Source: Haloarcula regularis (GTDB lineage: Archaea > Halobacteriota > Halobacteria > Halobacteriales > Haloarculaceae). From it: a DNA stretch of 64,000 nt. Position numbers and translations under genes: made by a program. Every line of letters begins with the position of its first letter. The stretch's first letter is position 1. The stretch spans positions 310,001-374,000 of the forward strand of contig NZ_CP119794.1 of the NCBI RefSeq assembly GCF_029338315.1, in the 5' to 3' direction. Under the pieces are notes generated by a model. It was not told the DNA's origin, did not search any database, and worked only from the letters and a program-made list of their open reading frames with translations. Positions 42,944 through 50,560 of this stretch are shown here, in pieces.

Positions 42944-44428
42944 ATGTCAGGACACAACCCGAAACCGACGGTCGGAGCGCTCCCGGACACGACGGCGGAG
43001 TCGCCGTTCGTGCCCGTTGCACTAACGTGGCTCGTGTGGTCGCTGTTCGCGGCGAGCATCGCCGTCCTGGGCGCCCGACTCCTGTCCGACGGCGCCTGGG
43101 TGGTCCCGGGCGTGGCCGTCGTCGACGGCCTGACCGTCCTGCTGTGGGTGGTTGTCACGTTCTTCAGCGGCATCGTCCACAGTTATTCGCGCCGCTATAT
43201 GGCCGGCAACGCCGTCGAGACCGACTTCTTCGTCACCGTGTTTGGCTTCACCGTGGTCGTGATGGGGCTCGTCGCCGCCGACCACGTCGCCCTGTTCGGC
43301 GCGCTGTGGCTGACGATGGGACTTCTGATGGCTAGACTCGTCGGCGTCGTCGACGGGTGGAACCAGGCACAGGCGGCCGCGAAGGTCGCCCGCAGGTACT
43401 TCCTCGCGAGCAGCGCGCTCCTGGGTGTCGCGGTGGCGACGCTCTGGTGGACGACGGGGGCGACGACGATCTCAGGAGTCGCCTCGGTGTCCGGGTCGCT
43501 AGATGGGACGGCCCTGGTCGTCGCCGCTGGGACGCTCGTCCTCGCAGCGATGATACAGTCCGCCCTGGTGCCTTTCCACACCTGGCTGCTCTCCTCGATG
43601 ACCGCGCCGACGCCGGCGTCGGCGCTCATGCACGCGGGGTTCGTCAACGCGGGCGGCATCCTGCTGACTCGCTTCGCCCCCGTCGTCAGCGTCGACCCCA
43701 CGATACTGCTGGCCATCGTCGTCGTCGGCGCCGTCAGCGCGCTAGGTGGGAAGCTGCTCAAGTCAGTCCAGTCGGACGTCAAGGGCGAGCTCGGTTGCTC
43801 GACGGTCGGGCAGATGGGATTCATGATACTGCAGGCCGGACTCGGGTTCTTCGGAGCAGCGATAACCCACCTCGTGCTCCACGGCTTCTACAAGGCCTAC
43901 CAGTTCCTGGGCGCGGGAGGCCAGGTCCAGCGCCGTGCTCCTGGGTCGTCCGCGACGGCGGGGACAGGCCTGACCGACATCTCCGTCACGCTCGTGACGG
44001 CACTCGCCGGCGGCGCGCTCTTCGCGTTCTTGACCGGAAAGGGCACGAGCCCCGATAGCGGCCTCCTGCTGGCCCTGTTCGTGGTCCTCACCACGCTCCA
44101 CGCGGCCAGGAGCGTCGTCCAGCACAGCGACCTCTCGGCGACGGTCCGTTACGGGGCGGTTCCGCTGGTCTTCTTCCCGGCCATCACCGTCTACGCGCTC
44201 GTCTACACCGCCATCTCGGGCCTCCTGTCCGGACTGCCGGCCGTCACGGCGGCGACCGAACTGACCGCCCTTCACGCCCTCGTAGCGGTCGCCTTCGTCG
44301 GCGTCTATCTCGCCGTGGAGACCGGCATCCATCAACGGAGTCACCGCCTCTACGTCGCGCTGGTGAACGCGAGCCAACCACCACAGCAGACCATCACGAC
44401 CACCGCGGAGGACTACGATGACTACTGA
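42944..44428 (+). CDS. dabB: DabB-like proton-conducting membrane subunit of inorganic carbon pump
   Basis: 494 residues, about 13-14 membrane helices, of the NuoL/MrpD proton-translocating family. Characteristic blocks: FFSGIVHSYSRRYMAG in the N-terminal third, the core SALVPFHTWLLSSMTAPTP with SALMHAGFVNAGG, and LGCSTVGQMGFMILQAGLG. The gene overlaps the start of dabA by 11 bases. The partner identifies it as DabB of a DAB-type dissolved inorganic carbon accumulator, in which proton flow drives vectorial CO2 hydration. The name rests on that pairing. Confidence 0.88.
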   Translation: MSGHNPKPTVGALPDTTAESPFVPVALTWLVWSLFAASIAVLGARLLSDGAWVVPGVAVVDGLTVLLWVVVTFFSGIVHSYSRRYMAGNAVETDFFVTVFGFTVVVMGLVAADHVALFGALWLTMGLLMARLVGVVDGWNQAQAAAKVARRYFLASSALLGVAVATLWWTTGATTISGVASVSGSLDGTALVVAAGTLVLAAMIQSALVPFHTWLLSSMTAPTPASALMHAGFVNAGGILLTRFAPVVSVDPTILLAIVVVGAVSALGGKLLKSVQSDVKGELGCSTVGQMGFMILQAGLGFFGAAITHLVLHGFYKAYQFLGAGGQVQRRAPGSSATAGTGLTDISVTLVTALAGGALFAFLTGKGTSPDSGLLLALFVVLTTLHAARSVVQHSDLSATVRYGAVPLVFFPAITVYALVYTAISGLLSGLPAVTAATELTALHALVAVAFVGVYLAVETGIHQRSHRLYVALVNASQPPQQTITTTAEDYDDY

Positions 44429-46819
44429 GACGACGATTCACGACAGCATCGACAAGGCAGCGACTACCGTCGGGTCGGTCTGGCCGATCCACTCGTTCGT
44501 GACGGCCAACCCCCTCGCGGGGTTCGAGGACCTCCCGTTCGACCGGGCCGTGATCCAGGCCGCAGATCTGCTCGGCGGGCGCGGGTACCCGCGCCCCGAG
44601 ACCTACCGGGCCGCCCTCGAGGACGGGCAGATAGACCCCGAGATACTCGAGGCAGAGCTCGCGGAACGCGGTTTCGAGGGAGACCCGGAGAGCCTGCTCG
44701 ACCGTATGGACACCGACGCCGAGCACGACGCCCCAGACACCGCCACCGAACGCGTCGACCACGTCCTGACGAAGTGGCTGGCGGACTTCATCGACGAGGG
44801 GCGCGCCGAGTGGGCGATGCCGGACCGCGAGGCCGGGTTCTACGCCGCTTTCCGGACGGTGGCCGAGCACGACGGCGACATCCCCGAGGAGGGGATCGTC
44901 CGTGACCTGCCCGAGACGCCGCTGACGGCCATCGAGAGGCTGCTCGACCCATACCCGGAGAGCCAGTGGGTCCCGATCCTCGAGGAACAGTTGGCCGCGC
45001 TCCCGGGCTGGACCGGGTTCGTCAAGCAGCGCGTCGAGGACGGCGGGGACTGGCAGTCGGCCCACCCCATCACGCTGGAGGGGTACCTCGCCGCCCGCTT
45101 CGCGCTGCTCGACGCCTTCGACGTGGATATCGAACCATCGACCGGTCCCGACAGCGCCGACGCCGACACCGTCGACGAACTCGCCGACGCGTTCCTGACC
45201 GCTTGGGAGGCGAGTTACCGCAGCGACGTCGTCGAGCACGTCGCCGACGAGAGCAAGTTGTTCACAGAGCGCGAGTCGTCGGGGCGCCCCGACGCGCAAC
45301 TGGTCTTCTGTATCGACACCCGATCAGAGGTCATCCGCCGTCACGTCGAGGCCGCGGGCGACTACGAGACCCACGGCTACGCCGGGTTCTTCGGCATCCC
45401 CATGGAGTACCAGGGTTACGACGACGTGGCCGTCGACGCCTGTCCGCCCATCCTCGACCCGCAGCACCGCATCTCCGAGGTACCGACCGACGACGACACG
45501 CGGGCGAGTCACGCGACGTGGACGGACCTCCGCGAGACCGCGGGGTCGGCCGTCAAGACGCTGAAGACGAACCCCGCGACGGCTTTCGGCTTCGTCGAGC
45601 AGGCCGGGAGCGGGTACGGACTGGCACTCGCCGCCCGGACGCTCGTTCCCGGCCGCGTCGCCGACCTGTTCGACACCGCTGAGGACGCGGTCCCCGACGG
45701 ACACGAGTTCTGCGACCAGACCGTCCACCACCAGCACACCTACGCGGGCGACCTCCCGGTGGGGCTGACCCACGAGGAGAAAGTCGAGTACGCCGCGACG
45801 GCCTTCGACCTGATGGGGTGGGCGGAGTTCGGTCGCCTGGTCGTCTTCACCGGTCACGCCAGCGAGACAACCAACAACCCCTACGACGCGAGTCTCGACT
45901 GCGGGGCCTGTGCCGGCAACCCCGGCGGCCTAACGCGCGCGTGCTCGCGTCCATCTGTAACGACCCGGACGTCCAGGCGGCGCTTCGCGAGCGCGGCGTC
46001 GACGTACCCGAGGACACCGTCTTCCTCGCCGGCGAACACAACACGACGACCGACGAGGTCGAACTGTTCGACGGCCACGTCCCCGAGAGCCACGCCGACG
46101 AGCTCGAGCAGTTGCGCGAGGACCTCGCCACCGCTCGCGAGAGCGCGGCGGCCGAGCGCGCCGGGTCGATGGACGCCGGCGCCTCGACGGGTGTCGGCGA
46201 GACGGAACGCCGCGCCGCCGATTGGGCGGAGACCCGCCCCGAGTGGGGGCTGGCCGGCAACGCCGGGTTCGTCGTCGGGCCACGCGCCCTGACCCAGGAC
46301 CTGGTTCTCGACGGCCGGTCGTTCCTCCACTCCTACGACTGGTCGACCGACCCCGAGGGCGACGCCCTCGAGGCCATACTCACGGGCCCGATGGTCGTCA
46401 CGCAGTGGATCAACGCCCAGTACTACTTCTCGACGGTCGACAACGCCGTCTACGGCAGCGGGTCGAAGGTGACCCACAACCCCGTCGGGAACGTCGGGGT
46501 CTACCAGGGCAACGGCGGCGACCTGATGACCGGGCTCCCGTTCGAGTCGCTGATGGCCGCCGACGGCGACCCGTACCACCAGCCGCTCCGTCTCTCGACG
46601 GTCGTCCACGCCCCGGTCGACCGCACCACCGAGGTGCTGGCCGGCCACGACCACCTGACCGAGCTGCTGGACAACGACTGGCTCTCGCTGACGGTCGTCG
46701 ACCCCACCCAGGGCCACCGCGCGTTCCACTACGAGGCGGACCTGGAGTGGACCCCGGTGGCCGACCAGCCGGAAGTGCGCCCGGCGGAAGCGAGGGCGCC
46801 GACGGTCGCGGACGACTGA
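44418..46819 (+). CDS. dabA: DabA-like (DUF2309/UPF0753) carbonic-anhydrase-type subunit (one frame shift)
   Basis: About 800 residues after inserting one base near 45930 (GGCGGCC likely lost a C), matching family length. N-terminal signature [20 protein letters not shown]. The beta-carbonic-anhydrase-like zinc site is complete: C298 and D300 in [12 protein letters not shown]480 in [13 protein letters not shown], and C495 in [12 protein letters not shown]-terminal part has [18 protein letters not shown] and [20 protein letters not shown]. It works with DabB to hydrate CO2 to bicarbonate in the cytoplasm. Because all ligands survive, the frame break is more likely a read error than decay. Confidence 0.9.
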
Positions 46820-47942: not shown

Positions 47943-48563
47943 TCAGGACCCGCGTTCGCAGTCACAGCCGCGCTGTTCGAACAGTTCCGTGACGGAGTAC
48001 TGGGCGCCACACTCCTGGCAGAGGACCTGGGCGTCGAGGAACACCTCGAACTCCCCGAGGTCGAACCGCCCCGAGTTGCGCAGCTTCTCGATGCGCTCTT
48101 CGGTGACCGACATCGTCCGCGTCATCAGCCGCTGGATGCTTTCCAGGTCCTTCTGTATCTTCTCGTCGTCGGACGGCCCCTCGTAGGCCGCGCCCCGCCA
48201 CTCCTTGAGATACGAGCGTATCGCCTGATACGTGACGAAGTCGCCCAACAGGTCGTCGACGTCGACGCCGTTTCGCTCCAGTCGACTGCGCGTGTCGGTC
48301 TGGACACCCGTGCTCACTTCCTCGTCGGTGAGGTTCCGGTAGGTCATGTCCACGTTCGTCTCGAGCGCGCTCATGCCGGCGTCGAGCAGTCGCTGTTCCA
48401 GGAGGCGTTTGTTGAACAGGGTCGCGAGGTCGCGGAGGCTCATCCGCTCTTCGCCCGTCCCCGTCCAGCGAGCTTCCAGTTCCGCGCCGAGTCCGTCGAG
48501 GTCGTAGTCGTCGATGAGCCGGGCTACTTTGCTCGACGGACGGTCTTCTGTCGCGTCAGCCAT
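47943..48563 (-). CDS. rdfA: Rod-determining factor RdfA-like protein
   Basis: 206 residues. Core: KVARLIDDYDLDGLGAELEA, RMSLRDLATLFNKRLLEQRL, and TYRNLTDEEVSTGVQTDTRS. The C-terminal part has a zinc-ribbon-like end with LCQECGAQYSV and GCDCERGS. This matches the haloarchaeal RdfA family, named for its role in rod cell shape in Haloferax volcanii. There too it neighbours an SMC-like gene (sph3). It lies 45 bases downstream of the SMC-like gene here, with its own TATA-like CTTTTACTGG about 30 bases before the ATG. Whether it sets shape in this organism is inference. Confidence 0.8.
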   Translation of the reverse strand: MADATEDRPSSKVARLIDDYDLDGLGAELEARWTGTGEERMSLRDLATLFNKRLLEQRLLDAGMSALETNVDMTYRNLTDEEVSTGVQTDTRSRLERNGVDVDDLLGDFVTYQAIRSYLKEWRGAAYEGPSDDEKIQKDLESIQRLMTRTMSVTEERIEKLRNSGRFDLGEFEVFLDAQVLCQECGAQYSVTELFEQRGCDCERGS

Positions 48564-48608
48564 CTATTGCTTGAAACGTGGGGCGAGACCAGTAAAAGCG
48601 TGTCGCCC

Positions 48609-50560
48609 TCAGATGTCGGTGATTCGGTGGTAGTCGTCGTCGAGCGCCTGGGCGTCCTCGGGGAGGAGCGCTACGACCAGATACTCGGCGTAGTCGCTGA
48701 AGTAGTCCACCAGCGCCGCGATGCGGTCCGCGTCGATGGCCTCGAGCGAGTCGAGCAGCATGAACGGGACCACCTCGTGGAGGTCGTGGACGAGGTAGCC
48801 CGCCAGCGCGAAGATGAGCCCCGTCACCTTCCGCTCGCTCTCGCTGAGGTGGTCGATGGTGTCCTCGTAGGCCGCGCCGTTCTCGGTCGTCCTGACGATG
48901 TGGAGTTCGAACATCGCGCGGTCGACGGTGCGACGCCCCTCGCGAACGGAGCGTTCGACGCGCTCGATCCAGATGCGGTCCAGGTTCTCGTACTCGAGGG
49001 TCTCGAGCAGGGCGTCCATGTGCTGGTTGAACTCCTCGACGGCCTGGCTCTCGATCTGGTCGATCTTCGTCCGGAGGTCCGTGAGCTGGTCACCCAGCTC
49101 CTCGCGCTCCGTCCTGAGTTCCTCGGCGTCCTCGAGCATCCCCTCGATGGTCTCTATCTCCTCCGTCGCTTCGTCGAGGTCAGACTCGAGGCGGTCGATC
49201 TCGAACTCGAGCTGGTTGGCCTCCGTGTGGAGGGAGAGGATCTCCTCGAAGTCCTCCGACTCGAGGTCCTCGACGTCGGACTCGAGGGTCTCGACCGTCT
49301 CGGTCAGCGACTGGCGCTGTTCCTTGAGCGACTCGACCTGTTCGGTCCGCCGGTCGATCTCGGCCGCGATGTCGTCGATCTTCTCGTCGAGTTGCTCTCG
49401 CCGGCGCTGTTTGCGCTTGGCCTCCGACTGCTGGTCCTTGAGGTCTTCCAGTTCCGTCTTGAGGTCGTTCAGTTCGGCGACCTTCTCCTGGCGCAGCGAC
49501 TGGAGCCGCTCGACGGTCGCCTCGATCTGTTCGCGGTCGACGGTCGACCCACAGGTCCAGCAGACCAGGTCCTCCTCGTCGTCGGCGAGCAGCTTGTCGG
49601 TCACTTCGCCACTCGTCGACGTGTCCTCGAGTGTCTGCAGGACCTCGTAGTCGTCGTCCTCGAGTCGCTCCTCGTTGTACTGGATGAGACTCTGGAGGTC
49701 GGAGATCTCCGTACTGAGCGACTGGCGCTGTTCCCTGAGTCGGACGATCTCGTCCTCGAGGTTCGCGTGTTCGCCCATCGGGGCCGACGGGAGCTCCTCG
49801 CGTTCGGTCTCGAGTTCGCTCCGTTCCGATTTCAGCGAGGCGATGCTCTCCTCCTGGGTCTCGATCTTCCGGCGGATGGACTCGATCTCCGAGCGCGTCT
49901 CGCGGAGCTCGTCGAGCTTCGACTCGAGCTTCTGTTGCTCGCGACGACTCTCCTCGATGTTCTGGCTGTTCTCGTCGATCTCCGCCTCGAGTTCGGCGAC
50001 TCGTCGCGCTTGTCCTCGATCTGTTCGCGCAGCTCGGTCCGGCGCTGTTCGAGCCTTGGGAGGTCCGTTTTCCGATTCTCGATGGTTGCGAGCTCTTCGT
50101 TTATCTCCTCTTTCTCCGCTTCGAGTCGGCTGATCTCCTCCTTGATAGCCGTCGTATCCACGGGGCGCATGATGATCTCCCGGAGGTCGTCTCCACGGGC
50201 GACGGACTGCCGGGGTTCGTTGGTCTCGAGCAGGAACGCGAAGAGGTCCGCCACTTCTGGTTCCTCGAGGAACGGGTCCCCCGAGAACTTCACGGCGTCT
50301 CCCGTGCGAGCGAGGGTTCGCTCGTACGTCTCGCCGCCGAACTCGAGTCGGATGTGTCCCTCGTCGGCATCGCCTTTGAGTGTCACCTCCCGACTGCCCA
50401 TCGCACCCATGATGGACTGGAGGAACGACGTCCTGTTTGTCGCGTTCTTCCCCGTCAGGACGGTTACCCCGGGTGGGATGTCGACCTGTGCGCTATCGAT
50501 CCCGCCGATGTGCTCGACGTCGAATCGGGCGACATCGGAGACCTGACTCGATGAACTCAT
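48609..50560 (-). CDS. Archaea-specific SMC-related protein (Sph3/ASP type; one frame shift)
   Basis: About 650 residues after adding one base near 50000; a length remainder of two fits a single deletion. Head-coiled-coil-head layout: N-terminal nucleotide region VTVLTGKNATNRTSFLQSIM, long acidic coiled coil about 150-520, and a Rad50-like CxxC hook in DLVCWTCGSTVDRE near the middle. The C-terminal head has signature LSESERKVTGLIFALAGYLV and FMLLDSLEAIDADRI. The Walker A position has Arg where Lys is canonical and the Walker B has Asp-Ser, so ATP hydrolysis may be altered. Leaderless start suggested by TTTTTATAATGG about 27 bases before the ATG at 50560. It pairs with rdfA. Confidence 0.85.

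Follow-up and report, generated by a model that had tools for sequence, protein, structure and literature searches.

The window (the whole 64,000-nucleotide stretch of DNA analysed here) contains a pair of adjacent genes on the minus strand, with sph upstream of rdfA and the following features:

47943..48563, minus strand: rdfA, rod-determining factor family, 206 aa (PF21811)
47958..48020, minus strand: C-terminal four-cysteine site of RdfA (C182, C185, C200, C202), a probable zinc ribbon with putative zinc binding
48609..50560, minus strand: sph, SMC-like, ASRP family, about 650 aa spread over two frames (NF045487)
49832..50560, minus strand: N-terminal piece of sph, open frame of 242 aa, in the family frame up to about residue 185
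48609..49998, minus strand: C-terminal part of sph in a second frame, with the frame change near 49,998–50,010
50426..50452, minus strand: Walker A motif of Sph, GKNATNRTS, with Arg where Lys is usual
49551..49562, minus strand: zinc-hook motif of Sph, CWTC, read in the translation
48834..48848, minus strand: ABC signature of Sph, LSESE, read in the translation
48747..48758, minus strand: Walker B motif of Sph, LLDS (LLDSLE), with Ser where the catalytic Glu is usual

RdfA matched PF21811 over the complete profile (positions 1–195 of 195; E = 4.2e-77; 258.8 bits against a cut-off of 27). The C-terminal piece of Sph scored 398 bits against NF045487, the ASRP profile (cut-off 300), and the N-terminal piece scored 226 bits over profile positions 1–205; in a genome-wide search the two pieces jointly cover the profile (positions 1–206 and 163–593). 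These matches bear out a sequence-only reading of this DNA, which had recognized RdfA beside an SMC-like protein, and we agree with its placement of the pair in the haloarchaeal shape-control set, as described in the accessible text of PMC10869688. The CxxC zinc hook expected between the coiled-coil arms of an ASRP is present as CWTC, whereas the LSGGE signature and DE Walker B of Rad50 are replaced by LSESE and DS. The locus is a sph–rdfA module of the known haloarchaeal RdfA/Sph set, and the window copy is a further member of a known, widespread gene pair and not a new system. A role in cell shape has been demonstrated only for the H. volcanii relatives and is putative for the window pair.

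The sequence-only reading had placed the pair, with the motifs of the SMC-like protein, at 47943–50560; the motifs are there, but the reading missed that the sph frame is not intact. Near 50,000 the reading frame of Sph switches, so that its N-terminal half is encoded in a different frame from the remainder; the N-terminal piece runs on in the wrong frame until a stop, and the remainder is open in the other frame. This frame change could mean that the window sph is a true pseudogene and that the organism has no working Sph, since it is the single ASRP above the NF045487 cut-off in the genome (which also has a single RdfA match). However, both Sph pieces match the family end to end, and the same kind of break affects two other genes of the genome. 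The neighbouring DabA gene (PF10070; window positions 44418–46816, plus strand) has profile positions 1–496 in one frame and 495–747 in the next, the frames meeting at position 495/496 in a clean break that resembles that of sph, and Rad50 (C1:3047862–3050374) is also read in two frames. With DabA and Rad50 broken likewise, we take the break in sph for an error of the assembly rather than the mark of a pseudogene, which we regard as very improbable. Two further results argue against it: a codon-usage scan with our own settings, covering the window only and with no control genome, gave nine places in 64 kb where the frame may change with no stop at the junction (including those near 823, 1896, 7597, 20559 and 62641), some of which may be overlapping genes; and the genome is 90% complete in 2 contigs, compared with 99–100% for 23 congeners drawn without a completeness limit. 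Indels may have broken many genes of this assembly. With its broken frame, the window copy is a poor starting point for study; its nearest named relatives, from Haloarcula species, have intact Sph proteins of about 650 aa with 70–72% identity.

Of 292 haloarchaeal genomes sampled at a completeness of at least 90%, 260 contained RdfA (259 of them above the cut-off), and so did 71 of 76 genera. At 80 RdfA loci, which we picked from the best-scoring places listed, Sph lay within 400 bp in 59 cases; these pairs were arranged as RdfA then Sph (37), as Sph then RdfA, the order of the window (7), convergently (12) or divergently (3). One further locus had Sph 1.6 kb away, and 20 had no Sph in the stretch examined (mostly 7.8 kb). 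Conversely, we took the best 80 Sph loci from named genomes, found through HLSESER/NATNRTS peptide patterns, and 65 of them had RdfA within 400 bp; at least one of the 15 others is cut by a contig end. These counts agree with the pairing counts of 42/54 and 42/50 given in the part of PMC10869688 that was available. We also observed 3 to 6 RdfA matches in each of 15 genomes of the same genus, compared with 1 in this genome.

Evolutionary distances among RdfA proteins followed those among Sph proteins across 100 adjacent pairs (Spearman 0.89). For 13 genomes that each hold two or three RdfA–Sph pairs (28 pairs in total), the true partners gave 0.80, whereas swapping partners within genomes gave a mean of 0.26 (sd 0.14), with 1 of 2,000 swaps as high. 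RdfA and Sph evolve as matched pairs, each RdfA travelling with its own Sph. Such matched evolution supports a functional pair, short of proving contact; joint transfer of neighbouring genes could also bring it about.

We aligned the window Sph with 60 proteins that other genomes encode at their RdfA loci, without any selection by motif. The Walker A residue was Arg in 60 of the 61 proteins and Lys in one, Walker B was DS in 60 and DA in one, and both LSESE and CWTCG were present in all 61. Three motif assignments of the earlier reading (Arg for the Walker A Lys, Asp-Ser for the Walker B Asp-Glu, and a CxxC hook) are confirmed by these counts and by the translation, which reads GKNATNRTS, LLDSLE and CWTC. 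Its 'good LSESE signature' is the usual form in the clade, but it is not the LSGGE found in Rad50 of the same genome. The P-loop Asn, Thr and Ser, the signature Ser and the Walker B Asp, which would be the residues that contact nucleotide and magnesium, were among the most conserved columns, so that the site is kept in an altered form; E608, three residues past the Walker B Asp, was invariant (61/61) in the window's clade. ParA and MinD P-loops have a second, signature lysine, and we considered the Lys before NATNRTS (position 38) as a candidate for it. We rejected this candidate, as the place is occupied by Arg in 45 of the 61 proteins, Lys in 7, Glu in 6, and Gln, Asp and Pro in one each.

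A wider set combined these 61 proteins with divergent haloarchaeal proteins, the named loci, and Lys forms that a DNA pattern picked out in 32 of 391 genomes. Its 194 rows, less 7 that were identical to others over the last 590 residues, comprised 178 haloarchaeal and 9 other proteins (187 in all). Among the 178 distinct haloarchaeal Sph, the Walker A residue was Arg in 138 and Lys in 40, shares that do not represent frequencies because the set is partly motif-selected. The Thr/Ser after this basic residue, the Walker B Asp and the hook cysteines were each present in 178 of 178. The residue after the Walker B Asp was Ser in 144, Ala in 26, Gly in 5 and Arg in 3, and in none was it Glu; every one of the 138 Arg proteins carried Ser. 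Arg and Ser went strictly together in the first 162 rows, but the Lys-form pattern then yielded six proteins with Lys and Ser, so that we retain only the statement that Arg never occurs without Ser.

Because parts of the wider set were motif-selected, we made a profile-based census of all haloarchaeal NF045487 places apart from the window's two pieces, which gave 55 places in 34 genomes (at most five candidates were scored per genome, and the table has 57 rows, two places being entered twice). Forty-three places had Arg with Ser, 5 Lys with Gly, 3 Lys with Ala and 3 Lys with Arg; the last was a Lys fragment lacking the C-terminal part. Thus both motifs of the window Sph are recognizable with Arg for Lys and Ser for Glu, as in 43 of the 54 census places that retain both regions; Ser was found in all 43 Arg places, and the Walker B Glu in 0 of 54. 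The odd ATP-site letters are a fixed mark of the haloarchaeal Sph clade and not a local defect. The description of these motifs as 'weakened' is therefore not upheld, with the catalytic Glu absent from all 54 census places and all 178 proteins of the wider set.

Several subgroups varied in these letters. In one (eight loci), Walker A has Lys (PNASNKTS) and Walker B is DALEP-like; seven of its members form a clade nested among Arg forms. In another (six loci, 609–624 aa), Lys is combined with a DSLGAFD-like Walker B, in which Ser follows Asp, and with an LAESE signature, and RdfA is near in 4 of 6. Three Sph of one genus carry the Walker A variant GRNATHRSS.

The window Sph has in common with other ASRPs (Sph and coalescin/ClsN) its match to NF045487, its length, its zinc hook, and a Walker A at the N-terminal end with a Walker B at the C-terminal end. 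Unlike it, the nine non-haloarchaeal ASRPs that we compared (ClsN not among them) all keep Lys, and six keep Glu (Walker B is DE in six, DN in two and DD in one). Because three of the nine, from outside Halobacteria, have also lost Glu (DD, DN) while keeping Lys, the loss of Glu is not tied to RdfA.

Two trees of the heads, both built without the motif columns, bear on the order of these changes. The fewest changes were 2 for Glu and 3 for Lys/Arg in the first tree (84 heads, all nine outgroup rows), and 1 and 2, respectively, in the second (88 heads, with more Lys forms and three Glu-bearing outgroup rows). In the second tree, Lys changed to Arg in a large clade, and Lys appeared again in a seven-row clade (support 100) among the Arg forms, in which Ala also replaces Ser. 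We did not retain a single loss of Glu, since the count of one change rests on the three Glu-bearing outgroup rows and becomes two with all nine. The direction of change rests on outgroup rooting, and the detail is limited by long branches and by support below 95 on several inner forks.

One explanation for these patterns is that Sph does hydrolyse ATP, at a site so rearranged that Arg does the work of Lys, and E608 of DSLE or the LSESE Glu replaces the catalytic Glu, perhaps only in an RdfA-bound dimer. Consistent with this, Arg is always accompanied by Ser (138/138 and 43/43), E608 is invariant in the window's group, and the nested seven-row Lys clade has Ala for Ser, as would be expected if the two places cooperate. 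However, with only two K/R changes on the tree, the coupling lacks statistical significance (median p 0.5 in a sign test). In addition, six Lys proteins also carry Ser, and there are Lys groups with DG/DR, or with DSLG, that lack the later Glu. We consider an active, rearranged site unlikely.

The sequence-only reading had labelled the protein Sph3, a label that our comparisons do not sustain. According to the accessible text of PMC10869688, the H. volcanii genes are ordered rdfA–sph3–ddfA, with HVO_2174–HVO_2175 encoding RdfA–Sph3. In Haloferax denitrificans, an RdfA–Sph pair precedes a 66-aa HalOD1 open reading frame (PF18545, E = 2.1e-14), and we took this pair as Sph3-type because its order corresponds to rdfA–sph3–ddfA. 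As in the window, RdfA lies beside an ASRP there, and the protein has GRNATNRTS, LSESE, DSVEAID and CWTC, with the same Arg and Ser as the window Sph. The altered site is thus compatible with a working protein, if the Sph3-type protein works as H. volcanii Sph3 does. Nevertheless, the window Sph is only 45% identical to the Sph3-type protein, compared with 52% to another Haloferax Sph (HVO_2175 itself was outside the comparison), and the gene order is reversed, with RdfA before Sph in Haloferax and Sph before RdfA in the window. In the first tree the window Sph fell within a 15-row set (support 96) that excludes the Sph3-type protein, and in the second no supported set of up to half of the rows contains it. 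The two features expected of a Sph3 orthologue, greater similarity to Sph3 than to other paralogues and an rdfA–sph3–ddfA order, were not found for the window Sph, a HalOD1 gene near the pair having been looked for among part of the window's open reading frames. The available text of PMC11276520 groups Sph2–4 apart from Sph1, and 'Sph of the Sph2–4 group' would be a safer name. The haloarchaeal ASRPs of about 600 aa (eight loci) are probably of the Sph1 type; like the window Sph they have an RdfA-like neighbour (in 7 of 8), but they differ from it in having Lys (NWQGKSS or NFQGKSS), DG or DR, and LSEGE.

The intact 653-aa Sph of Haloarcula japonica, modelled with 43 relatives (mean pLDDT 83), is predicted to have a long coiled coil attached to a head; the tip (residues 301–339) is poorly predicted. 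The best PDB match of this model was Rad50 in the ATPgammaS-bound Mre11–Rad50–Nbs1 complex (E = 3.6e-17), and Smc5/6 and MukB were also among the best matches. Judging from the relative's model, Sph would share the head fold of Rad50 as well as its zinc hook; the Rad50 of this genome differs from Sph in its motifs (GLNGSGKSS, LSGGE and LILDEP) and lies beside an open reading frame that, judged by eye, would be Mre11. We did not accept weak coiled-coil matches of Sph to LmuB, JetC and SbcC models as evidence of membership.

The window RdfA, modelled with 47 relatives (pLDDT 90.3, pTM 0.66), is predicted to be made of helices, with a small C-terminal four-cysteine element that has two short strands and two helices; C182, C185, C200 and C202 were nearly invariant (at least 90%) in 48 aligned RdfA. 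Foldseek searches of the model against solved structures returned nothing at E < 0.001, comparison with 429 chains gave a best Z of 4.6 over 76 residues, which is the noise level for helical proteins, and a sequence profile gave one PDB match, at E = 0.99. The model therefore has no convincing match among solved structures, although this is no proof that the fold is new. RdfA had no counterpart among PADLOC and PHROG families, and one peptide pattern matched 24 stretches of viral contigs, none of which was a relative.

Glu-to-Gln mutants of ABC and SMC ATPases trap closed, ATP-bound heads, and the first site of CFTR, which has Ser at the place of the catalytic Glu, holds ATP. By analogy with this general behaviour of ABC/SMC ATPases, a Sph head may close on ATP and stay closed. 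In the reading that we favour, to which we give an even chance, Sph and RdfA form a module whose heads bind nucleotide, hydrolyse it poorly or not at all, and act as a stable clamp or scaffold. Sph would have a head of the SMC/Rad50 kind, joined to an antiparallel coiled coil that ends in a zinc hook. Two such heads would close with nucleotide between them, gripped by the altered P-loop with its Arg or Lys together with the invariant Thr/Ser, the Walker B Asp and the signature. As the catalytic Glu is missing, hydrolysis would be very slow or would not occur, and the closed heads would be long-lived, as in the trap mutants. Sph would then be a clamp or scaffold gated by nucleotide, acting on DNA or as a coiled-coil assembly, and not a motor, with RdfA (small and helical, with its C-terminal four-cysteine site) as its dedicated partner; the cell shape and gene conversion phenotypes would follow from this scaffold.

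Several points count against such a clamp or scaffold. Other ATPases often lose binding or hydrolysis when Arg replaces the Walker A Lys, and ATP binding and hydrolysis by the window Sph are putative, the case for binding being the conservation of the site. E608 could serve as a catalytic base. The matched evolution of the pair is also explicable by joint transfer, and 15 of the 80 Sph loci and 20 of the 80 RdfA loci have no near partner. The Sph frame is broken in the window, and 3 of 9 non-haloarchaeal ASRPs also lack Glu.

Alternatively, the head may no longer use nucleotide, and Sph may be a coiled-coil scaffold like intermediate-filament-type proteins. The authors of PMC10869688 suggest such an intermediate-filament-like scaffold for Sph3 in the part of that paper available, and it is consistent with the predicted long coiled coil and with the fact that all haloarchaeal Sph examined have lost Glu and most have lost Lys. 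By contrast, a dead site would not need the P-loop, signature and Walker B Asp that are among the most conserved columns, and a Lys clade is nested among the Arg forms, so that we find a nucleotide-free scaffold quite unlikely.

The published phenotypes bear on a further alternative, in which Sph works mainly on DNA, in intermolecular gene conversion, and its part in shape is a by-product or a use specific to certain paralogues. In the accessible text of PMC11276520, survival in gene conversion falls when any one of the four H. volcanii sph genes is deleted, and sph2 and sph4 cannot be deleted together; the nearest folds of the Sph model, Rad50 and SMC-type proteins, would also agree with DNA work. 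Against it, deletion of rdfA or sph3 gives a clean disk-only phenotype (PMC10869688, with the sph3 result confirmed in PMC11276520), and deletion of sph2 gives rods (PMC11276520), as far as the available text of both papers goes. This alternative, which does not exclude the clamp or scaffold, has some plausibility, but we lean against it. The accessible part of a further paper, PMC13286277, states that Sph3 promotes plates, contrary to PMC10869688 and PMC11276520, in which sph3 deletion removes rods.

A broader version of the clamp or scaffold, which we put forward as a doubtful possibility, is that haloarchaeal Sph are a branch of SMC proteins without an ATP hydrolysis cycle, in which nucleotide only locks the heads, and RdfA replaces a kleisin- or Mre11-type subunit. 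If this is true, cell shape and genome copies would be served by an SMC scaffold that is not a motor. If Sph heads bind ATP without turning it over, shape control by Sph would not be motor work.

The gene pair is known and has been studied experimentally. What may be new is that no haloarchaeal Sph examined keeps the catalytic Glu, although the remainder of the nucleotide site belongs to the most conserved parts of the protein. The ASRP family, with its Walker and hook motifs, is named in the accessible text of PMC9389158, whose main text uses none of the words arginine, lysine, glutamate and degenerate; the main text of PMC10869688 and that of PMC11276520 do not use the word Walker. A clade-wide loss of Glu is not mentioned in the available parts of these three papers or of PMC13286277, in a search that left subscription journals mostly outside. 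The clade-wide peculiarity of the ATP site is real and deserves a biochemical test.

Relatives of Sph also occurred on 114 plasmid records, one of which (CP002989.1) carries the annotation 'Kinetochore-Ndc80 complex, subunit Spc25', probably a misnaming caused by the coiled coil. In two genomes of another class, we observed that an ASRP is adjoined by a 307–334-aa protein with a paired CxxC near its start (at 2013–2936 and 1969–2973 in its two loci), which is a possible partner gene.
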